A DNA stretch of 64,000 nt, from contig JADLGE010000083.1 of the NCBI GenBank assembly GCA_020849475.1, forward strand, positions 62,001 through 126,000, in the 5' to 3' direction. The position numbers and the translations under genes were made by a program. This DNA is from Gammaproteobacteria bacterium (lineage in GTDB: Bacteria; Pseudomonadota; Gammaproteobacteria; Ga0077536). Shown here one piece after another: positions 53,110 through 64,000 of the stretch. The notes beneath the pieces were generated by a model. That model was not told the DNA's origin. It worked only from the letters and a program-made list of their open reading frames with translations, and searched no databases. The stretch's first letter is position 1, and every line of letters begins with the position of its first letter.

Positions 53110-53868
53110 TCAATAGACCCGCAGTACCGCGGCGTCACCCTGACCTTCGATGTAATCCTCGTAGCCGTCGCCGGGCGGGTTGCCATCGTAGATGTCGTAT
53201 TCACGCTGCTGGCGCCAGGCTTCGCGCACGAAGGTATAAGGATCGAGTGCAGCCTGGTCGCGTATGCGGGTCGCATCGAGCAGGTTGGCGCGGGTATTGA
53301 CCGCGCTCACCACGCCGGCCGGAATAGTCACGACCGACGCGAAGTAGGTCAACGGGTTCAGGAACATGTCCATCACCGGCGAGCCGATGTCGCGGAATGA
53401 GCTCGGCCCCATCAAGGGCAGCATGAGGTAAGCGCCTTCCTTTGCGCCCCACTTGCCGAAGGTCTGACCAAGGTCTTCGTTGTGCTGCTTAAGGCCCATG
53501 CTGGTGGCCGGGTCGAAGAGGCCGCCGACACCGATGGTGCTGTTGACCAGGAAACGGCCCGAGTCGGAAGCGGTCTGGGTGAACTTGCCTTGCAACAGAT
53601 CGTTGGCGATGGTGTTCAGGTAGCCGGTGTTATCAAAGAAATTGGTGATGCCGTTGCGGACCGGGTCGGGCGTGTACTGCGCGTATTTCTTGGCCACCGG
53701 CTCGACGAAATGTTTGTCGAGGGTGTCGTTGAACGTATAGAACTTGCGGTTCATGTTCTCATAGGGGTCGCCGCCATTCTTGGCCGCGTCATTCGACGCG
53801 CAGCCGGTGACGGCTAGCAGCACGGCAGTCGCGGCAAGCAGGCGCGACAGGACACTGAACTCAGTCAT
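53110..53868 (-). CDS. mlaA: MlaA/VacJ outer-membrane lipoprotein
   Basis: 252 residues from the ATG at 53868. The lipobox is LLAVTGCASN. DPYENMNRKFYTFNDTLDKHFVEPVAKKYAQYTPDPVRNGITNFFDN and FGKWGAKEGAYLMLPLMGPSSFRDIGSPVMDMFLNPLTYF are MlaA signatures. It removes mislocalised phospholipid from the outer leaflet of the outer membrane and passes it to MlaC, whose gene lies 84 bases upstream in the same unit. Confidence 0.95.
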   Translation of the reverse strand: MTEFSVLSRLLAATAVLLAVTGCASNDAAKNGGDPYENMNRKFYTFNDTLDKHFVEPVAKKYAQYTPDPVRNGITNFFDNTGYLNTIANDLLQGKFTQTASDSGRFLVNSTIGVGGLFDPATSMGLKQHNEDLGQTFGKWGAKEGAYLMLPLMGPSSFRDIGSPVMDMFLNPLTYFASVVTIPAGVVSAVNTRANLLDATRIRDQAALDPYTFVREAWRQQREYDIYDGNPPGDGYEDYIEGQGDAAVLRVY

Positions 53869-53952
53869 GTTGAAAGTTCCGCAGGCTTGGGTATTCAGTA
53901 AGAATATTGCCACATTCGTTGCTGATCCGCACTACGGCCAGACGCCGTCGGC

Positions 53953-54555
53953 TTACGAACCTTGACTCATGTCGGCTACCTTCTTTTCCAGGCGTTTGAT
54001 TAATGAATCAAAGCCTTCGCTCTTGATAACGGCCGTGTAATCGGCGCGCTTGAGGGACAGGTCCGAAACGCCCTGGGCAACGACGTTCATGATGAGCCAT
54101 TGGCCGTTGGTTTGACGCAACAAATAATTCAACGGCACCGGTTCGCCCTCGGTCGGGCGCAGGGTGGTGCGGACGATCAGCGCATCGTGATCTGCCTCGC
54201 TGCCCTCGGTCTGGAATTTCTCCCCCGAAAAGCTGGAGAAATTGCTGGCATAAGTCGCCACGCTGAGTTTCTTGAAGACCTCGATGAAGCGCGCCTTCTG
54301 CTCGTCGCTGGCCGCTTTCCAATGGCGGCCGGTGACGATGCGGCAAATCGAGTCGAAGTCGAAACTGCTGGTGATGACCGGTGCCAGCATCTCTTCGCGG
54401 CCCTTGAAGCCCGCCTTACTGCCGGCCTGCATGGCGCCGAGCAGGGATTCGTGAAGCTTCTCGACCACGGTCTTGGCGCCGGCATCGTCCGCCGCGGCGG
54501 CGAGACCCGACAGCAGCAGCAGGCTGGCGGCAAACAGGGACTTCAATAATTTCAT
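53953..54555 (-). CDS. mlaC: MlaC/Ttg2D-family periplasmic phospholipid carrier
   Basis: 200 residues with a signal peptide (MKLLKSLFAASLLLLSGLAAAADDA). The family core is FDFDSICRIVTGRHWKAASDEQKARFIEVFKKLSVATYASNFSSFSGEKFQ...LNYLLRQTNGQWLIMNVVAQGVSDLSLKRADYTAVIKSEGFDSLIKRLEKKV. It ferries phospholipid between MlaA and the MlaD complex encoded 19 kb away. Members linked to hopanoid genes are named HpnM; with hpnB and hpnH next door, that name is possible here. Confidence 0.93.
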   Translation of the reverse strand: MKLLKSLFAASLLLLSGLAAAADDAGAKTVVEKLHESLLGAMQAGSKAGFKGREEMLAPVITSSFDFDSICRIVTGRHWKAASDEQKARFIEVFKKLSVATYASNFSSFSGEKFQTEGSEADHDALIVRTTLRPTEGEPVPLNYLLRQTNGQWLIMNVVAQGVSDLSLKRADYTAVIKSEGFDSLIKRLEKKVADMSQGS

Positions 54556-54658: not shown

Positions 54659-55783
54659 TCAGTGGCCTTGAATCTTATCGTAGCTGCGACTCTTCCAGCG
54701 GCTGCGTTCGCCGGTCCAATAGCGCCACGCGGAGGTCCAGGTCATGGCCAGGAACAGACAGGCGGCGAGGCTCAAGGTCGGGATCCACTGCGGGCCGAGG
54801 CCGTAGAACTTGATGGTTGGACGGTAGGTCCAGCTCATCGCCGCCAGGGCCACCACCGCGGCGCTCACCGTTGCGAGGTCGCTGCTGAACAGACCGGCGA
54901 CTGGCGCTATGAAACTCAAACCCAGCATCAAGGTGCAGACCACCAGCAGGGCGTTCGAATAGCGCAACTGCGTGAAGGCGGTGCGCGCCACCATGTTCCA
55001 GATGTTGGCCAAGGTTTCGTAAGGGCGAATCGCTCGCACGTCGCGACTCAAGCCCAGCCAGGTGCGGCCCCCGTGGCGCTTGACGCGCTTGGCCAGCGTG
55101 CAGTCGTCGATGATCGCTTCACGCAGGGATTCAAAGCCGCCGATGGCTCGCAGCATGTCGGTGCGCAGCAACACACAGCCGCCGGCCGCCGCCGCTATCG
55201 GTGACCGCGGCCGATTGGACAGCGCGAAGGGATAGATGAGTTTGAAAAAATAGATGAAAGGCGGCAGCAGCAGCTTTTCAAAGGCATTGCCCATGTGCAG
55301 GCTCGCCATCACCGAGGCCAAGGCCAGGTCGTGCTGCTGCATGTGTGTCTTGAGCGCCGCCAGGGCGCGCGGCGCCAATTCGATGTCGGCATCGAGCAGC
55401 AAGGTGTAGGGCGTTTCGACCTGGGCCGAGGCCTGCTGCAGCGCCCACAGCTTGCCGCTCCAGCCGGCTGGCAAGGGGCTGCCGTCGAGCACCATGAGAT
55501 TGTCGAGGCCGACGCCGCGCGCCACGGCGCCGGTGCCATCACTGCTCTGGTCGTCGACCAGTACGATGCGCGCGATGTTGCCCTGGGCGGCGAGGGCGCG
55601 CAGCGTGGCGGCGATACAGCTTGCCTCGTCGCGGGCCGGGATCAGAACGGTGACATCGGCGAGATCGAGCGGGCCGAGGTCGGCAGGAATGTGCAGTCTC
55701 TCGGCGGTCGACCACGGTCGCCACGGCAGCACCAGCACGGTCAGCCACAGAAGGGCGGACAGGGCCGTGGCGGTCAGTAACAT
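54659..55783 (-). CDS. hpnB: Hopanoid-biosynthesis-associated glycosyltransferase HpnB
   Basis: 374 residues. An N-terminal helix is followed by a GT-A family 2 domain (VTVLIPARDEASCIAATLRALAAQGN, LVDDQSSDGTG, LLLDADIELAP, REAIIDDCTLAKRVKRHGGRTWLGL) and three C-terminal membrane helices. The arrangement and length match HpnB, a family 2 glycosyltransferase of hopanoid clusters. It may glycosylate a hopanoid or related isoprenoid lipid. Same strand as hpnH upstream. Confidence 0.9.
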   Translation of the reverse strand: MLLTATALSALLWLTVLVLPWRPWSTAERLHIPADLGPLDLADVTVLIPARDEASCIAATLRALAAQGNIARIVLVDDQSSDGTGAVARGVGLDNLMVLDGSPLPAGWSGKLWALQQASAQVETPYTLLLDADIELAPRALAALKTHMQQHDLALASVMASLHMGNAFEKLLLPPFIYFFKLIYPFALSNRPRSPIAAAAGGCVLLRTDMLRAIGGFESLREAIIDDCTLAKRVKRHGGRTWLGLSRDVRAIRPYETLANIWNMVARTAFTQLRYSNALLVVCTLMLGLSFIAPVAGLFSSDLATVSAAVVALAAMSWTYRPTIKFYGLGPQWIPTLSLAACLFLAMTWTSAWRYWTGERSRWKSRSYDKIQGH

Positions 55784-55848: not shown

Positions 55849-56979
55849 TCAGGCGACGCGTTTGGAACTGCAGCTCGAGCCGCTGCCGGCTTCCGCCGAC
55901 GCGACCAGGCGCGGCTTGGCCGCCTCTTCCTCGTAGGTGAAGGGCAGTTCTGGCGCCATCGGACCGTCGGTACGGGGCCCGAACAGTGCCACGCGCGCGG
56001 CCTTGAGCGGATGGGCGAAGGTGTCATCCACCGCCGTCATCTCATAGCCGCAGTGCATCATGCAGTTGTCGCACTTCGGATTGCGGCCGGTGCCGTACTT
56101 TTCCCACGGGGTGTCGTCGATGAGTGAGCGGTAGGTCGGTGCATAGCCTTCGCCGACCAACAGGTAGCAGGGCTTCTGCCAGCCGAACACATTACGTGTG
56201 ACGGCGCCCCACGGCGTGCACTCGTAGGTCTGGTTGCCGGCCAGGAAGTCGAGGTACATCGACGACTGGTTGTAGCGCCAGTTACGGCCCTTGCCCAGGC
56301 GGAAGATGTCGCGGAACAACTGCTTGCTGCGCTGACGGCCGAGGAACACATCCTGCTGCGGTGCGCGCTCGTAGTTGTAGCCCGGAGCAATGGTCACGCC
56401 TTCGAGGCCGAGCGCCATCATCTGGTCCATGAATTCGCCGACTTCCTCGGCGGTCTCGCCCTGGAACAAGGTGCAGTTGGCCGTCACGCGGAAGCCGCGG
56501 GCGAGGGCCTTCTTGATGACTTCGATGCACTTGTCGAACACACCCTGACGGCACACGGAGGCATCGTGGCGCTCACGGCCGCCGTCGAGGTGGATGGAGA
56601 AGGTCAGATAGGGGCTGGGTTCGAATTCGTCCATCTTCTTGTCGAGCAAGAGTGCATTGGTGCACAGGTAGACGAACTTCTTGCGCGCGATGAAGCCTTC
56701 GGCGATGCGCACGATGTCCTTGTGAATCAGCGGCTCGCCGCCGGCAATGGACACCACCGGCGCGCCACATTCATCGATAGCCTGCATGCAGTCTTCGAAC
56801 GACAAGCGCTTGTCGAGGATCTCGTCAGGGTAATCAATCTTGCCGCAGCCGGCACAGGCGAGATTGCAACGGAACAGGGGCTCCAACATCAGCACCAGTG
56901 GATAGCGCTTGTTACCCCGGAGCTTCTGCCCAAGGATATATCGACCCACGCGATACTGCTGAATGAGAGGAACGCCCAT
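55849..56979 (-). CDS. hpnH: Adenosyl-hopene transferase HpnH (radical SAM)
   Basis: 376 residues. MGVPLIQQYRVGRYILGQKLRGNKRYPLVLMLEPLFRCNLACAGCGK carries the radical-SAM CxxxCxxC at C38, C42 and C45. VVSIAGGEPLIHKDI and a C-terminal SPASM-like cysteine region (CDNCMMHCGYE) follow. HpnH joins 5'-deoxyadenosine to diploptene, the first step to C35 bacteriohopanepolyols. The squalene-hopene cyclase is not in this window. Divergent from dxs. Confidence 0.95.
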   Translation of the reverse strand: MGVPLIQQYRVGRYILGQKLRGNKRYPLVLMLEPLFRCNLACAGCGKIDYPDEILDKRLSFEDCMQAIDECGAPVVSIAGGEPLIHKDIVRIAEGFIARKKFVYLCTNALLLDKKMDEFEPSPYLTFSIHLDGGRERHDASVCRQGVFDKCIEVIKKALARGFRVTANCTLFQGETAEEVGEFMDQMMALGLEGVTIAPGYNYERAPQQDVFLGRQRSKQLFRDIFRLGKGRNWRYNQSSMYLDFLAGNQTYECTPWGAVTRNVFGWQKPCYLLVGEGYAPTYRSLIDDTPWEKYGTGRNPKCDNCMMHCGYEMTAVDDTFAHPLKAARVALFGPRTDGPMAPELPFTYEEEAAKPRLVASAEAGSGSSCSSKRVA

Positions 56980-57274: not shown

Positions 57275-59170
57275 ATGACACAAAGTTCTCATTACCCCCT
57301 GCTCGACAAGATTGACCTCCCGGCTGACCTCCGCGCCCTGCCCGAATCAGCCCTTCCGCAGGTGGCGGCCGAAGTCCGCGCCTTCCTGCTCGAATCGGTC
57401 AGTCAAAGCGGCGGCCACTTCGCCGCTGGCCTGGGCTCTGTCGAACTCACTGTCGCACTGCATTATCTGTACAACACACCCGAGGATCGCATCGTGTGGG
57501 ACGTTGGCCATCAGGCCTACCCGCACAAGATCCTGACCGGCCGTAAAGATCGCCTGCAGAGCATCCGTAAAGCTCATGGGCTCGCGCCGTTCCCGAAACG
57601 CGAAGAAAGCGTCTACGACACCTTCAGCGTCGGCCATTCCAGCACCTCGATCAGCGCCGCGTTGGGCATGGCCATCGCCGCCAAGCTCACCGGCTCCAAC
57701 CGTCGCGCGGTGGCAGTCATCGGCGATGGCGCGATGACCGCCGGTGTCGCCTTCGAAGCCTTGAACCACGCTGGCGACCTCAACACAGACCTGCTGGTGA
57801 TCCTGAACGACAACAACATGTCGATTTCGCCCAACGTCGGCGCGTTGTCGAACCGCTTCGCGCAGATCCTGTCGGGCAAGCTCTACACCACGGTGCGCGA
57901 AGGTAGCAAGAAAGTGCTGTCGCAGATGCCGTCGGTGTGGGAGCTGGCGCGGCGCGCCGAGGAACACGTCAAGGGCCTGATCGTGCCTGGCACGCTGTTC
58001 GAGGAATTCGGCTTCAACTACATCGGCCCCATCGACGGGCACGACATGGACGCGCTGCTGCACACCCTGCGCAACGTCCAGCAATTGCATGGCCCGCAGC
58101 TTCTGCATGTGATCACCAAGAAGGGCAAGGGTTATGCCCCGGCCGAGGCCGACCCGGTCAAGTATCACGGTGTCAGCCCTTTCGATCCGCATCAGGGCAT
58201 TGTGCCGTCCGCCAAGAAGAGCGCCATCAACTACTGCGATGTGTTCGGCAGCTGGGTGTGCGACATGGCCGCCAAGGACCGTCGTCTGGTCGCCATCACG
58301 CCGGCCATGCGCGAAGGCTCGGGCCTGGTGCGCTATGAGCGCGAATACCCGACGCGCTATTTCGACGTCGCGATTGCCGAGCAGCACAGCGTCAACGTCG
58401 CGGCCGGCATGGCCTGCGACGGCTTGAAGCCGGTCGTGGCCATCTATTCGACCTTCCTGCAGCGTGGTTACGATCAGGTCATCCACGACGTCGCCAACCA
58501 GAACCTGCCGGTCTTGTTTGCGCTCGATCGCGCCGGCCTGGTCGGGGCCGATGGCCCGACCCACAACGGCAGCTACGATATTTCTTTCATGCGCTGTCTG
58601 CCCAACATGACGGTCATGACGCCGTCGGACGAGAACGAATGCCGGCAGATGCTCTACACCGGCTTCATGCTCGACGGTCCGTCGGCGGTGCGTTATCCGC
58701 GCGGCACGGGGCCGGGCGTCGACATTCAGGAGGAGATGCAGGCGCTGCCGCTGGGCAAGGCCGAGTTGCGTCGCCGTGGCCGCCGCGTGGCGGTGCTGGT
58801 GTTCGGCGTGATGTTGGCGCCGGCGCTTGAAGTGGCGGAAAAGCTCGACCTCACGGTCGTCAACATGCGCTTCGTCAAACCGCTGGATGAGGCCATGGTG
58901 CTGGAGATGGCGCGCAGCCACGAATTGCTCGTGACGTTCGAGGAAAACGTGGTGGCGGGTGGCGCTGGCAGTGCGGTCAACGAATGCCTGGCAGCGCACG
59001 GCGAGAGCGTGGCGATTGCCAACTGCGGCTTGCCTGATCGCCTGATTCAGCACGGTTCGCGCGAAGAAATGCTGGTTGATGCCGGCCTCGATGCGGCCAG
59101 CTTCGAGCAGTTCGTGCGCGCGCGCATCGCCACGCTCGACGCACAGACGCCGGCGGCGCGCCGCGCCTGA
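57275..59170 (+). CDS. dxs: 1-deoxy-D-xylulose-5-phosphate synthase
   Basis: 631 residues. Thiamine-diphosphate motif [74 protein letters not shown] and transketolase-like [32 protein letters not shown] and RYPRGTG segments are all present. It condenses pyruvate and glyceraldehyde 3-phosphate to DXP, feeding isoprenoids (ispG at 19.3 kb) and pyridoxal phosphate (pdxA at 11.9 kb). Next to hpnH and hpnB, so it probably supplies hopanoid precursors. Confidence 0.96.
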
Positions 59171-59195: not shown

Positions 59196-60272
59196 CTAGG
59201 TCGCCAATACCTCTTCCAGGGCCCGGCACAGCCGGGCCATGTCGTCGGCGCTGATGTCTCCCATCGCGGAAATGCGGAACACCCGTTCCGACAGCGCCCC
59301 TTGACCTGCATAGATGATGAAGCCGCGCGCTTTCAGCGCGTCGTGCAGCGTCGGGTAGTCGCGACCCTCGGGCAGTTCAAACGCATGCAGAGCACAGGAC
59401 GTCTCGTCTGTCGCCAGCAGCGCGCGCACGTTCAGGCGGGCCAGCGTTGCCCGCACCGTCGCCATGCGCGACTGAAACAATTGCTGGCGGGCGGGCTGGC
59501 CGCCAGCCGCGAAGAATTCATCGAGCGCGGCATCCAGCGCATAGAAGGTCTGCACCGATTGCGTGAAGGGTGTGCCCTGACCATCCTGCTTGGCGAGGTA
59601 ATCGCGCAAATCGAAATACACCGAGCGTGATACCGCCGCCGCCGCGAGCGCCGCGCGGCGCAGCATCACGAACGCGGTGCCGGGCACACCGTGCAGGCAC
59701 TTGTTGGCGGTCGCCGCGCAGGCATCGATACCCCACGCTTCGAAATCGATGTCTTCAGCGCCAAAGCTGCTGACGCCGTCGAGCAACAGACGTGCACCGG
59801 TCTCCTTGCACACCGAAGCCAGCGCCGCCAGATCATTCAAGCGACCGGTGGTGGTCTCGTGATGGACCACCGCGACATGGCTGTGGGGCGTTGCGCGCAG
59901 CGCTGTGGCAATTGCTTCCAGATCGAGGCGCTCACCCCAAGGGGCGCGGATGCGCGTCGTGGCGATGCCGTAGGTTTCGGCGATGCGGCTCATGCGTTCG
60001 CCGTACACGCCGTTCTCGGCGACCAGCACTCGAGCGTCGCGCGGCACCAGGCTCGTGATCATCGCTTCCACCGCGGCGGTGCCGGAGCCGGTCAATAAAG
60101 TTGCGCCCCAGGCGTCGGCGGGCAGGTCATAGACCGCCATCAGCTTGCGTCGCAGGCCATCCTGCAGGGTCGCGAATTCCACTTCGCGATGGCATAGATC
60201 GGGGCCGAGCAGCGCGCTGCGTACGCGCTCGCTCAAGGTCACGGGGCCGGGATTGAGCAGAATGGTTTTCAT
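59196..60272 (-). CDS. phnW: 2-aminoethylphosphonate:pyruvate transaminase type PLP enzyme
   Basis: 358 residues of the PhnW class V aminotransferase family. LLNPGPVTLSERVRSALLGPDLCHREVEF at the N-terminus, GSGTAAVEAMITSLV, VVHHETTTGRLNDL, LLLDGVSSFGAEDIDFEAWGIDACAATANKCLHGVPGTAFVML with the PLP Lys in NKCLHG. It normally interconverts 2-aminoethylphosphonate and phosphonoacetaldehyde. Last in a minus-strand unit that makes phosphonoacetaldehyde, so here it probably runs in the amine-forming direction. It overlaps the upstream ppd gene by 4 bases. Confidence 0.92.
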   Translation of the reverse strand: MKTILLNPGPVTLSERVRSALLGPDLCHREVEFATLQDGLRRKLMAVYDLPADAWGATLLTGSGTAAVEAMITSLVPRDARVLVAENGVYGERMSRIAETYGIATTRIRAPWGERLDLEAIATALRATPHSHVAVVHHETTTGRLNDLAALASVCKETGARLLLDGVSSFGAEDIDFEAWGIDACAATANKCLHGVPGTAFVMLRRAALAAAAVSRSVYFDLRDYLAKQDGQGTPFTQSVQTFYALDAALDEFFAAGGQPARQQLFQSRMATVRATLARLNVRALLATDETSCALHAFELPEGRDYPTLHDALKARGFIIYAGQGALSERVFRISAMGDISADDMARLCRALEEVLAT

Positions 60273-61426
60273 GGCGCGCTGCCTATGTGTTGCATGAGGC
60301 GTGCGCGCACGGCCGGCGGTGTGATGGCCGGGCGCGGCAGGTCGTCGCGCGCGCCGGTCGCTATCTTCATGTGTATGAAGGCGCTGCCTGCCTGATCTCG
60401 AGCGGCGAGAAACTGCGTGAGTTCGTTCACATCGTCGCTGCGCATGACGCGCGCATAACCGCAGGCGGCGGCGACGCCGGCAAAGTCGGTGCAGGCGCTG
60501 ATCGTCGCTTGCGCGCCAGTCGAATCGTGGGCTTCGTTGTCGAGCACCAGGTGCGTGAGGTTCGGCGCGTTGTAGGCGCCGACGGTGGCAAGATTGCCCA
60601 TGCGCATGAGCGCGGCGCCATCGCCGTCCACCACCAGCACGCGCAAATCGGGGCGCGCGAGCGCCAGGCCGAGACCCAGGGACGACGCGCAGCCCATCGA
60701 GCCGACCATGTAGAAATGCTGGGGCCTGTCGGCCAGGGCGTATAACTCGCGTCCCGTAAAGCCGGTGGTGGCGATGACCACGCTCTGTGCGTCATCACTG
60801 GCGGCCAGCACCTCAGCCAGCGCGGCGCTGCGTGACGCACGCGCTGCCACGGCACGCGCGTGACCGCTGCCCTGCACGGCGACCGCGGCGCGCGGCATGG
60901 GCATGGCGCCAGCCGTCAAGGCGAACGGCTCGCAGCTGCCTTTCTGCATGATCAATGCGTAGGGCTCGGAGTGCGCGCGCATATGCGTGTCGATGTCGTC
61001 CAGCATGCCGTCGATGGCGGCGGCCTCACGCGGAAACGTCGCCCACGGTATGCCCATGGTCTCGAACAATTGTTCAGTGATGGTGCCCATCAAGGCGTGC
61101 TGTGGTTCGTCGCTGACGCCCGGCGCGCCGCGGTGAGTGCAGATCACCAGCACGGGAATGCCGAAGGTATGGGTCAAGGACGTCAGCGGACTGACGGCAT
61201 TACCGAGTCCCGAGTTCTGCATCATCGCTATCGAACGCTGGCCACCTAACCATGCCCCCGCGGCAATGGCCACCGCGTCGCCTTCATTGGCCGCGGACAG
61301 GTAGCGCAGGCCGTCGGCGCCGATCACGTAGTTGATGAAGGGCGTCAAAAATGAACAGGGCACGCCGGCGTAAACCTTGAAGCCGCGCCGCCCGGCCGCG
61401 TCGACGAAGTCGCGCGCATGAATCAT
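60269..61426 (-). CDS. aepY: Phosphonopyruvate decarboxylase
   Basis: 385 residues, thiamine-diphosphate-dependent. VYAGVPCSFLTPFINYVI, AANEGDAVAIAAGAWLGGQRSIAMMQNSGLGNAVSPLTSL and a C-terminal ThDP site VGSMGCASSLGLGLALARPDLRVLVVDGDGAALMRMGNLATVG are all typical. It removes CO2 from phosphonopyruvate to give phosphonoacetaldehyde, which makes the otherwise unfavourable PEP mutase reaction irreversible. 12 bases after the PEP mutase gene. Confidence 0.95.
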   Translation of the reverse strand: MIHARDFVDAAGRRGFKVYAGVPCSFLTPFINYVIGADGLRYLSAANEGDAVAIAAGAWLGGQRSIAMMQNSGLGNAVSPLTSLTHTFGIPVLVICTHRGAPGVSDEPQHALMGTITEQLFETMGIPWATFPREAAAIDGMLDDIDTHMRAHSEPYALIMQKGSCEPFALTAGAMPMPRAAVAVQGSGHARAVAARASRSAALAEVLAASDDAQSVVIATTGFTGRELYALADRPQHFYMVGSMGCASSLGLGLALARPDLRVLVVDGDGAALMRMGNLATVGAYNAPNLTHLVLDNEAHDSTGAQATISACTDFAGVAAACGYARVMRSDDVNELTQFLAARDQAGSAFIHMKIATGARDDLPRPAITPPAVRARLMQHIGSAP

Positions 61427-61438
61427 GACTACAGTTCC

Positions 61439-63094
61439 TCAGCGTTGGCCAGCGGTGAAACGCCCGGCCTGTTCCAGATCGCGAATCGAATTGACGTCGA
61501 GCCAATGTCCGTGAATGTAGATGACGCGCACCGGATGACCGCGCGCGACGATGTGATTGAGCAAATCGCCCATGCCGAGCCGATCAAAATCGGGGCTATC
61601 GGCCAGCGCATCCAAGGCGTTCTCCAGCCATTCACGGCCGCGCGCGCGGGTGCGCAGCATGCCTATCCAGCGGCCGTGGGCGGCGCCGTCAGCCGAATGC
61701 GCATCGGGAGAAATTCGCTCCAGCAGCACGTCCTGGCCCCACAGCGAACGATCGTCGGCAACGCTGCAATAGGCGTAATCAGGTTTGCCGCTGCTGGTGG
61801 CGCTGTTGTAATGGGAGTCGACCACCACTGTCAGGTCGCGATCCGATTCCATGAGGCCGCGCAGCACATAACTGCGGAAGAGCAGGTCGCCATACATCAC
61901 CACCATGTCGTCGCGGAATATCGGCCGCGCGCAATTGAGTGAGGTCAGCTCGCCGCTGTCGGCGTAGCGCGGGTTGTGCACGATGTCGATGCCGCCGACA
62001 TCGATGTGTTCGGCCTTGTAGCCGGCCACCACCGTCACCGAATCTATCTGCTGCTTGCGGCAGCGCTCGACCAGGCGTTTCAACAAGGGCTTGCCGTTGA
62101 CCGGCAGCATGACCTTGGGTCGTTCCTGCGTCAGGTCGTCCAGACCGTCGCCGCGCGTCGCGGCCAGGATTACCGCGCGCGTGTCGCGCCGCGACTCGTA
62201 AAGATAACGACGCTCGGCCTGCGCCAGTTCGTCGGCGCCCTGCAGACGAAAAATTTCCTTCACGCTCGCAATCTGATCTTCGACGGTGACCAGGGTCTGG
62301 TCGGCGTGAATCTGGCGCGCGGTCTCCTGCATCGCATCGACCGCGCTGCGAATGAGGTGGTTGGCCCAGATCACGAGACTCACACCGGCGTCGCGAAACA
62401 CCTGGGTCGGCGTGCTGTAGTACTTGGTCGGCACGATCACCAGCGGCGCGCGATTGGCCCACTCGCGTGCGAATTCGAGGATCTGCTCGGGCGTCGACCA
62501 TGCGCTGTGCACCAGGATCGCGTCCGCTCCGGCGGCGTGAAAGGCGCTCGCGCGGCGCAGCGCTTCGCGCGTGTCCCAGCCAGCGATATAGGCTTCGATG
62601 CGCGCCACCACGCAGAAGTCGTCATCGGTCTGCGAGTCCTTGCCGGCGGCAATCTTGCCGCAGAATTCATCGACGTCGGCCAGCTCCTGGCGCTCGCCGT
62701 CGATGAAGCTGTTGGTCTTGGGGAAGAGTTTGTCTTCGATACATACGCCGGCCACGCCGCGCTGTTCGAGCTTGCGCACCAGGCGGCGCATGTTGTTGAA
62801 GTTGCCGTAGCCGGTATCGCCGTCCAGCAGTATCGGGATGCGTGTGACGTCGGACATGAATTCGACCATGTCGACCACCTGCGTCCAGCTGGCTTCGTTG
62901 TTGTCGCGCACGCCGAACTGCGCCGACAGGGCGAGACCGCTGGCCCAGATGCCCTTGAAGCCCGCCTCTTCAACGATGCGCGCGCTGATGCCGTTGTGGG
63001 CTTCGAGAATGAATTCGAGCTCGCGACTGGCCAACAGTCGACGCAGCTGCGTGGTCTTGCGCATCACCGGCATGGCATCGTGGTCAGCGCCCAT
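61439..63094 (-). CDS. aepX: Phosphoenolpyruvate phosphomutase fused to a nucleotidyltransferase
   Basis: 551 residues. The first ~300 are PEP mutase: [40 protein letters not shown], metal/PEP region [13 protein letters not shown] and the diagnostic [11 protein letters not shown] (E120-D-K-x-F-P-K-x-N-S). From ~310 a second domain follows, like CTP-dependent sugar/choline nucleotidyltransferases ([64 protein letters not shown]). PEP mutase makes the C-P bond; the transferase may activate 2-aminoethylphosphonate as a CMP derivative for attachment to lipid or glycan (inference). The start may be the ATG of codon 8 or 11. It overlaps the upstream gene by 11 bases. Confidence 0.93.
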
Positions 63095-63824
63095 CTAGCA
63101 AGGGCAGCACATGTTGTTCGGCACGGATGAGATCCTCGGGGAAATCGATTTCCAGCCACGGCAGGCCGGTGATGTCTTCAACGCCAATGGCGAGTTCAGG
63201 GCGCAGCGCGAGATCGCGCAGCGCTTCTTCATGGGGCTCGGCGCGGCGGCCGTCGGCCACATAGGCGTCGAGCAGACGCGCCAGCAGCAGCGCGGTCGCG
63301 GCATCGAACTTGAAGAAGCCGACCGATTCGCCGATGCGATCATAGGCGAGACCGTCGGCCACGCGCTTGCGGAATTCAACGATGCGCGCGCCGGCCATGC
63401 ACAGCTTGACCGGTTCATCGCCGGGCGCGAAATCGCGATCCAGCAAATAGCAATTGCGCACCGGGCTCGTGACCAGTCGTCGCAGGATGTCAGCGTGGTA
63501 GAGCACATCGGCGTCCATCACCAGCACATCGTCACCACAGGCGAGCGTCGCGCGCGCACTCCACAGACTGAAGCTCGAACCCAGGGTGTAGAGCGGGTTG
63601 TAATGCAACAGCGTGGCAGGGCCGGGCAAGCTCCGCAGCGCGTCCGCAATCTGTTCTGACTCATGCCCCACGCACACCGTCAGGTTGTCGACGCCGCAGT
63701 CGAGGAGATTGCGGCAATGGCGTTCAAGCAGCGTCATGCCGCCGAATTCCAGCAGACACTTCGGCAGCGGCCGGCCCTGGTTCAGGCGTCGGCCGACGCC
63801 GGCGGCGAGGAGGATGGCGTGCAA
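63084..63824 (-). CDS. Stand-alone nucleotidyltransferase (LicC/choline-phosphate type)
   Basis: 246 residues starting with a TTG codon (TTG-CAC-GCC); no good ribosome site is seen, so coupling to the gene 9 bases upstream is likely. [56 protein letters not shown] is the nucleotide-binding half, and [21 protein letters not shown] carries the metal-binding DADV. The fold is that of phosphocholine or sugar-1-phosphate nucleotidyltransferases. It probably activates a phosphonate or alcohol phosphate for transfer. It is separate from, but similar in type to, the transferase domain of the PEP mutase fusion. Confidence 0.85.
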
Positions 63825-63833
63825 ACGCGTGGC

Positions 63834-64000
63834 TCAGGAACGCTTGGCGCCGGAGAACACCTGGCGAAAGCCGAAATAGGCGATGGCGTCCTTCATGTTG
63901 GAGACGAAGCGTCGCAGCGGATGCATGCCGAGCGTGGTCACGTATTCGAGCGTCAGCACCACGCGCCGCTCACCGGCGGCCGACGGCGTGACGCGATGCC
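63834..64000 (-). CDS. C-terminus of a gene in the phosphonate unit (5' part outside window)
   Basis: The last 55 codons of a minus-strand gene are visible and end at 63834. They read HRVTPSAAGERRVVLTLEYVT, then TLGMHPLRRFVSNMKDAIAYFGFRQVFSGAKRS. The HRVTP...GERRVVLTLEY pattern resembles the end of 2-oxoglutarate/Fe(II) oxygenases, where that His is the distal iron ligand, but this is a weak match on little sequence. The gene is upstream in the same operon as the nucleotidyltransferase and PEP mutase. Confidence 0.4.
   Translation of the reverse strand, partial: HRVTPSAAGERRVVLTLEYVTTLGMHPLRRFVSNMKDAIAYFGFRQVFSGAKRS

Follow-up and report, generated by a model that had tools for sequence, protein, structure and literature searches.

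The window analysed here is a stretch of 64,000 nucleotides (G000:C83:62001-126000, on a contig that ends at position 131949) from a gammaproteobacterial genome, and its right end carries an operon for the synthesis and probable activation of 2-aminoethylphosphonate (AEP). Four minus-strand open reading frames form an uninterrupted operon at 59196-63824, joined by 4- and 11-base overlaps and one 12-base gap; a scan for promoters and terminators gave no signal above chance. Genes beyond the window are numbered within L007, which covers the contig from 120000 to 131949; adding 57999 to an L007 position gives the position in the window. The genes of the locus are listed below with their strands.

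59196-60272, minus: AEP transaminase (AEPT), 2-aminoethylphosphonate:pyruvate type (TIGR03301, 384.5 bits, cutoff 360.8)
60269-61426, minus: phosphonopyruvate decarboxylase (PPDC; TIGR03297, 443 bits, cutoff 312.5)
61439-63094, minus: fusion of phosphoenolpyruvate (PEP) mutase (residues ~11-299) with a MobA-like nucleotidyltransferase (residues ~305-551) (TIGR02320, 397 bits, cutoff 319.6; PF12804)
63084-63824, minus, TTG start: stand-alone PntC-like nucleotidyltransferase (PF12804; canonical LAAGxGxRL...PK loop)
63834-64583 (L007:5835-6584; C-terminus in the window at 63834-64000), minus: 2-oxoglutarate (2OG)-Fe(II) oxygenase of HalD type, 249 aa (PF23169/PF13640)
L007:6608-7813, plus: divergent HpnL-like protein of the flippase family
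L007:7824-8984, minus: HpnA
L007:8816-9448, minus: small membrane cytidine diphosphate (CDP)-alcohol phosphotransferase (DxxDGxxARx8GxxxDxxxD motif; structural model)
L007:9498-10184, minus: HpnG (181 bits, slightly below the cutoff of 187)
L007:10215-11300, minus: squalene synthase family protein
57275-59170, plus: dxs, 1-deoxy-D-xylulose-5-phosphate synthase, for isoprenoid precursor supply (TIGR00204, 911 bits)
55849-56979, minus: HpnH, adenosyl-hopene transferase (TIGR03470, 549 bits, cutoff 225)
54659-55783, minus: HpnB-like hopene-associated glycosyltransferase (TIGR03469, 372 bits, slightly below the cutoff of 379)
53953-54555, minus: MlaC-family lipid carrier (PF05494), probably HpnM-like, judging by its position
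53110-53913, minus: MlaA lipoprotein (PF04333)

The AEP operon is placed within a hopanoid biosynthesis cluster, because HpnG, the CDP-alcohol phosphotransferase, HpnA and HpnL lie on one side of it and dxs, HpnH, HpnB, MlaC and MlaA on the other. A first-pass annotation of the window had placed the system at 59196-64000; the four reading frames are there, but the whole system extends to both sides of that range and its hopanoid setting had been missed. The same annotation had expected the operon to run past 64000 behind an oxygenase C-terminus and had suggested reading onward for glycosyl or CDP-alcohol transferases; the 249-aa oxygenase bears out the former, and a CDP-alcohol phosphotransferase does lie beyond, at L007:8816-9448.

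Enzymes of AEP synthesis and of its proposed activation and hydroxylation

AEPT, PPDC and PEP mutase share one operon and each score above the NCBIfam curated cutoff for their exact function, so the full route to AEP that had been proposed earlier stands. The PEP mutase active-site motif, EDKxxxxxNS, is found in the window protein and retained across 81/81 loci, namely the window and the 80 relatives kept from 394 relatives of the PEP mutase fusion that were confirmed by a scan of genome contigs. In this set, which comprises 49 non-cyanobacterial and 31 cyanobacterial relatives and in which a contig end truncates many of the loci, AEPT is kept in 66/81 loci, PPDC in 73/81 and the stand-alone nucleotidyltransferase in 72/81. 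A catabolic phosphonate operon is out as a reading: PEP mutase and PPDC are biosynthetic, and the best match in the genome to the phosphonatase PhnX (TIGR01422) reaches 45 bits against a cutoff of 220, with C-P lyase and other catabolic routes outside this search. This agrees with the earlier view that the operon serves biosynthesis.

The two nucleotidyltransferases, one of them fused to PEP mutase, had also been recognised in the first-pass annotation; both belong to PF12804 and would fit cytidylyl activation of the phosphonate. The stand-alone protein has the fold and loop of a PntC/LicC-type enzyme; among solved structures the Treponema PntC fusion 6pd1 comes closest (E 3.5e-11). The fusion protein matches PEP mutase 1m1b (E 2e-131) and the CTP:phosphocholine cytidylyltransferase 1jyk in the Protein Data Bank. 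In its nucleotidyltransferase domain (window 61439-62200), an LAA[S/T]RG loop within residues 308-333 replaces the canonical LAAGxGxR and the PK lysine is retained, a pattern conserved in relatives. We regard this domain as probably specialised rather than inactive, and because of the variant loop it may have another substrate or role than PntC.

The oxygenase model is confident (predicted local distance difference test score, pLDDT, 90), and its nearest folds are HalB/HalD and a hydroxylase homologue of BesD. Its facial triad, H136-x-D138...H196, and R207 are invariant. A halogenase, as the HalD match might imply, is ruled out because the iron-binding aspartate is present (HxD...H, not HxG). 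PhnY-like 2OG oxygenases, resembling methylphosphonate hydroxylase, lie near the cassette or near HpnG at L049:8917-9678, L026:4414-5172, L024:693-1454, L056:303-1349 and L065:3100-3861. The flanks at L026 and L049 showed no HalD-type oxygenase, and the PhnY-like homologue lies near the cassette there, which suggests that the latter functionally replaces the former and supports phosphonate hydroxylation as the probable role of the HalD-type enzyme.

Linkage of the phosphonate cassette to hopanoid genes

The arrangement recurs widely. Many Gammaproteobacteria have the order squalene synthase, HpnG, HpnN, CDP-alcohol phosphotransferase, HpnA, HpnL, oxygenase, nucleotidyltransferase, PEP mutase fusion, PPDC, AEPT, dxs, HpnH, HpnB, MlaC and MlaA, and dxs adjoins AEPT in most gammaproteobacterial loci. 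Elsewhere the cassette has other hopanoid neighbours: HpnR in Nitrococcus-like metagenome-assembled genomes (MAGs), HpnN, dxs and HpnH in Pandoraea, and HpnA, HpnH, HpnI and HpnJ in several Nostocales. Core hopanoid genes, among them HpnN, HpnR, HpnI and HpnJ, lie within about 10 kb of the cassette in 40/49 non-cyanobacterial and 11/31 cyanobacterial loci. A chance neighbourhood in a single MAG is ruled out by the 80 relatives together with the genome sample described next.

We quantified the association in a class-level sample of 229 genomes, of which 16 carry the PEP mutase fusion and 33 a hopene cyclase. A hopene cyclase is present in 15/16 genomes with the fusion compared to 18/213 without it (Fisher p = 1.3e-13, a value that is too small because the genomes, from about 11 families, are related by descent). 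HpnH is present in 14/16 fusion genomes, and hopene cyclase is missing from the three genomes of the sample whose PEP mutase is of another kind. A phylum-level sample added two whole-cassette genomes (G466 and G472), for which a hopene cyclase was predicted and then found in both. Divergent fusions without the cassette occur in five genomes, one of which has a hopene cyclase. The genomes behind the named loci have a hopene cyclase in 9/9 cases, some of them without hopanoid genes near the cassette. The genome of the window contains squalene synthase, squalene-hopene cyclase, HpnH and HpnG, the last marginally below its cutoff.

The CDP-alcohol phosphotransferase appears to link the two gene sets. 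It has the full catalytic motif, DxxDGxxARx8GxxxDxxxD, which is present in 35/38 members of its cluster. Its model is membrane-helical (pLDDT 92.9), and Foldseek matches it to AF2299 and inositol-phosphate enzymes and, at lower rank, to human CEPT1 and cholinephosphotransferase. Within the class sample it occurs in 15/229 genomes; 15/15 have a hopene cyclase and 14/15 the PEP mutase fusion. Among the 33 hopene-cyclase genomes, it is found in 14/15 with the fusion versus 1/18 without (p = 2.6e-7, again ignoring shared ancestry), which rules out a general hopanoid gene. The single exception, G008, is 75% complete, and its contigs (L106, L108) stop where the AEP genes would begin. A general phosphonate gene finds no support either, as no copy was seen in genomes of the class sample with other PEP mutases. 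In the cyanobacterial sample only 3/194 genomes have the phosphotransferase, not enough to repeat the co-occurrence test there.

In five genomes whose fusion lies on a separate contig, the phosphotransferase adjoins hopanoid genes: squalene-hopene cyclase, HpnA and HpnN at L092, HpnJ at L096, HpnA at L098 and L100, and HpnA and HpnN at L102. At L107 it adjoins AEPT and other AEP genes, and the hopanoid genes are elsewhere. Present only with both pathways and adjacent to either, the phosphotransferase therefore looks like the enzyme that joins them. Two loci (L024:7775-8398 and L056:7645-8412) have a second phosphotransferase-like copy adjoining the oxygenase, lacking the full catalytic motif and possibly a degenerate or regulatory duplicate. 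Many Nostocales (L049:6648-8285, L039:3125-4792 and similar) have a B12-binding radical SAM protein directly upstream of the phosphotransferase, with weak similarity to the PhpK family of P-methyltransferases; its substrate for methylation may be the phosphonate or the cytidine monophosphate (CMP) conjugate of the phosphonate.

The cassette was apparently transferred horizontally and came to lie once more beside hopanoid genes that were already resident. Cassette-type fusion proteins form one group in the tree (support 100/99), with the cyanobacterial sequences nested within the proteobacterial ones. Median identities to the window are nearly equal in cyanobacteria and proteobacteria for the PEP mutase fusion (77 versus 76%), the oxygenase (58 versus 60%) and the phosphotransferase (55 versus 59%), but not for HpnH (55 versus 75%) or HpnA (46 versus 66%).

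A proposed route to phosphonate-bearing hopanoids and its alternatives

We consider it probable that the operon and its hopanoid neighbours make up one pathway, which would equip a hopanoid with an aminoethylphosphonate head group and yield a 'phosphonohopanoid'. Judging by the enzyme families, PEP mutase converts PEP to phosphonopyruvate, PPDC converts this to phosphonoacetaldehyde, and AEPT produces AEP. The HalD-type 2OG hydroxylase may hydroxylate the phosphonate, probably to 1-hydroxy-AEP, and the PntC-like nucleotidyltransferase, the fused domain or both would make the CMP-phosphonate. The CDP-alcohol phosphotransferase would then move the phosphonyl group onto a hydroxyl of the side chain that the hopanoid receives from HpnH and HpnG, and HpnL-, HpnN- and Mla-type proteins would carry the product to the outer membrane. 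Transfer of the phosphonate onto a lipid or polysaccharide had been suggested earlier; the phosphotransferase agrees with a transfer of this kind, and the acceptor can be narrowed. Since hopanoid genes surround the operon and accompany the phosphotransferase in one lineage after another, we take a hopanoid, and not some lipid or polysaccharide at large, to be the likely acceptor. On balance, we also favour the broader proposal that hopanoids carrying AEP or hydroxy-AEP are an unrecognised class of membrane lipid in many uncultured Gammaproteobacteria, in Burkholderiaceae and in nitrogen-fixing cyanobacteria, made with a dedicated CDP-alcohol phosphotransferase.

Several observations weigh against a hopanoid acceptor. 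All the links that support it come from comparative genomics, and an acceptor is not readable from sequence; diacylglycerol is the common substrate of CDP-alcohol phosphotransferases. The squalene-hopene cyclase of the window's genome (791 bits) is on contig 79, separate from the AEP operon, and 20/31 cyanobacterial loci have no hopanoid gene in the flank. The genomes positive for the association amount to about ten families. G212, a complete genome, has a related PEP mutase fusion operon (L103, G212:C66:1-15000) without a hopene cyclase; it also lacks HpnH and the phosphotransferase, and its fusion falls outside the cassette clade, and this operon probably serves another acceptor. The homologous Nostoc cluster has, moreover, been published as a phosphonolipid cluster (PMC5987646).

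That publication and the substrate of CEPT1-like enzymes, which use diacylglycerol and which the phosphotransferase model matches at lower rank, together argue for an ordinary glycerophosphonolipid. The phosphotransferase would then move AEP or hydroxy-AEP from its CMP conjugate to diacylglycerol, and hopanoid genes would be adjacent since both products shape the outer membrane. Diacylglycerol is universal, however, and this explanation therefore predicts no dependence on hopanoids, whereas the phosphotransferase is found only in hopene-cyclase genomes (the 15/15 and two more), where the gene sits among HpnA, HpnN, HpnG and HpnJ. We regard a glycerophosphonolipid as unlikely. A still less probable product is a surface polysaccharide or lipopolysaccharide decorated with AEP, as in known phosphonoglycan clusters. 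Surface glycans or lipids are the supposed destination of most fusions of PEP mutase to a nucleotidyltransferase (PMC6697681), and HpnB and HpnI are glycosyltransferases; yet neither LicD-like nor polysaccharide genes were identified next to the operon, its only neighbouring glycosyltransferases are of hopanoid type, and the transferase belongs to the membrane CDP-alcohol type. Very improbable, in our judgement, is a free or secreted phosphonate metabolite whose hopanoid location is a historical accident held by linkage. The early AEP steps are common to phosphonate antibiotics and the block is partly syntenic among related MAGs, but the association recurs in different gene orders, in horizontally moved cyanobacterial cassettes, and with the AEP operon and the phosphotransferase on separate contigs.

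Related systems and neighbouring genes

No bacterial molecular fossils are used more than hopanoids, whose head groups determine how they act in membranes and to which organisms they are traced. If the hopanoid pathway is correct, a phosphonate head group makes some hopanoids zwitterionic, phospholipid-like and phosphatase-resistant, soils and waters gain an additional natural source of C-P compounds, and the travelling of AEP genes and a specific CDP-alcohol phosphotransferase with hopanoid genes is explained.

Parts of the system have precedents. Some 60% of Ppm proteins carry a further domain by fusion, and this is a nucleotidyltransferase in nearly every case (PMC6697681). Such fusions are common and the present type recurs in many uncultured Gammaproteobacteria, which leaves little force in the earlier remark that the organism is not a known phosphonate producer. 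The phosphonyl tailoring (Pnt) clusters of Treponema denticola and Atopobium rimae share AEP synthesis, the Ppm-PF12804 fusion and a PntC-like activator with the window; they contain LicD or glycosyltransferases for glycans and are described with no mention of hopanoids (PMC6697681), whereas here a CDP-alcohol phosphotransferase is tied to hopanoid genes. A phosphonate cluster known from lichen Nostoc and from Burkholderia has the same gene set, with CDP-alcohol phosphotransferase, 2OG-Fe(II) oxygenase, NTP transferase, pepM, ppd, AEPT and hpnL (PMC5987646). Hydroxy-AEP is among the abbreviations of that paper, consistent with the pathway proposed there; the cluster was read as phosphonolipid and hopanoids were not considered, although the figure names hpnL (PMC5987646). 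In a survey of Acetobacteraceae, a Roseomonas pepM adjoins squalene-hopene cyclase and an 'undiscovered terpene-phosphonate' was suspected (PMC8776678); that report gives no pathway, transferase or cross-lineage test.

Known hopanoid head-group pathways (HpnG, HpnO and HpnI-K-J, for the bacteriohopanetetrol, aminotriol, glucosamine and cyclitol-ether forms) have HpnH, HpnG, HpnA, HpnB, HpnL and HpnN in common with the present system. No hopanoid with a C-P head group was found in the literature searched, a scope that leaves out preprints and most subscription journals, and not one word starting with 'phosphon' stands in the text of a study on alphaproteobacterial hopanoids from 2025 (PMC12583986).

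Beside the hopanoid block, the window carries at 49614-53043 genes that resemble chorismate synthase and the FAD and FeS subunits of glycolate oxidase, labels read off their sequences. An FeS protein of this glycolate-oxidase kind (family c12, in 19 loci) comes after MlaA in many relatives.

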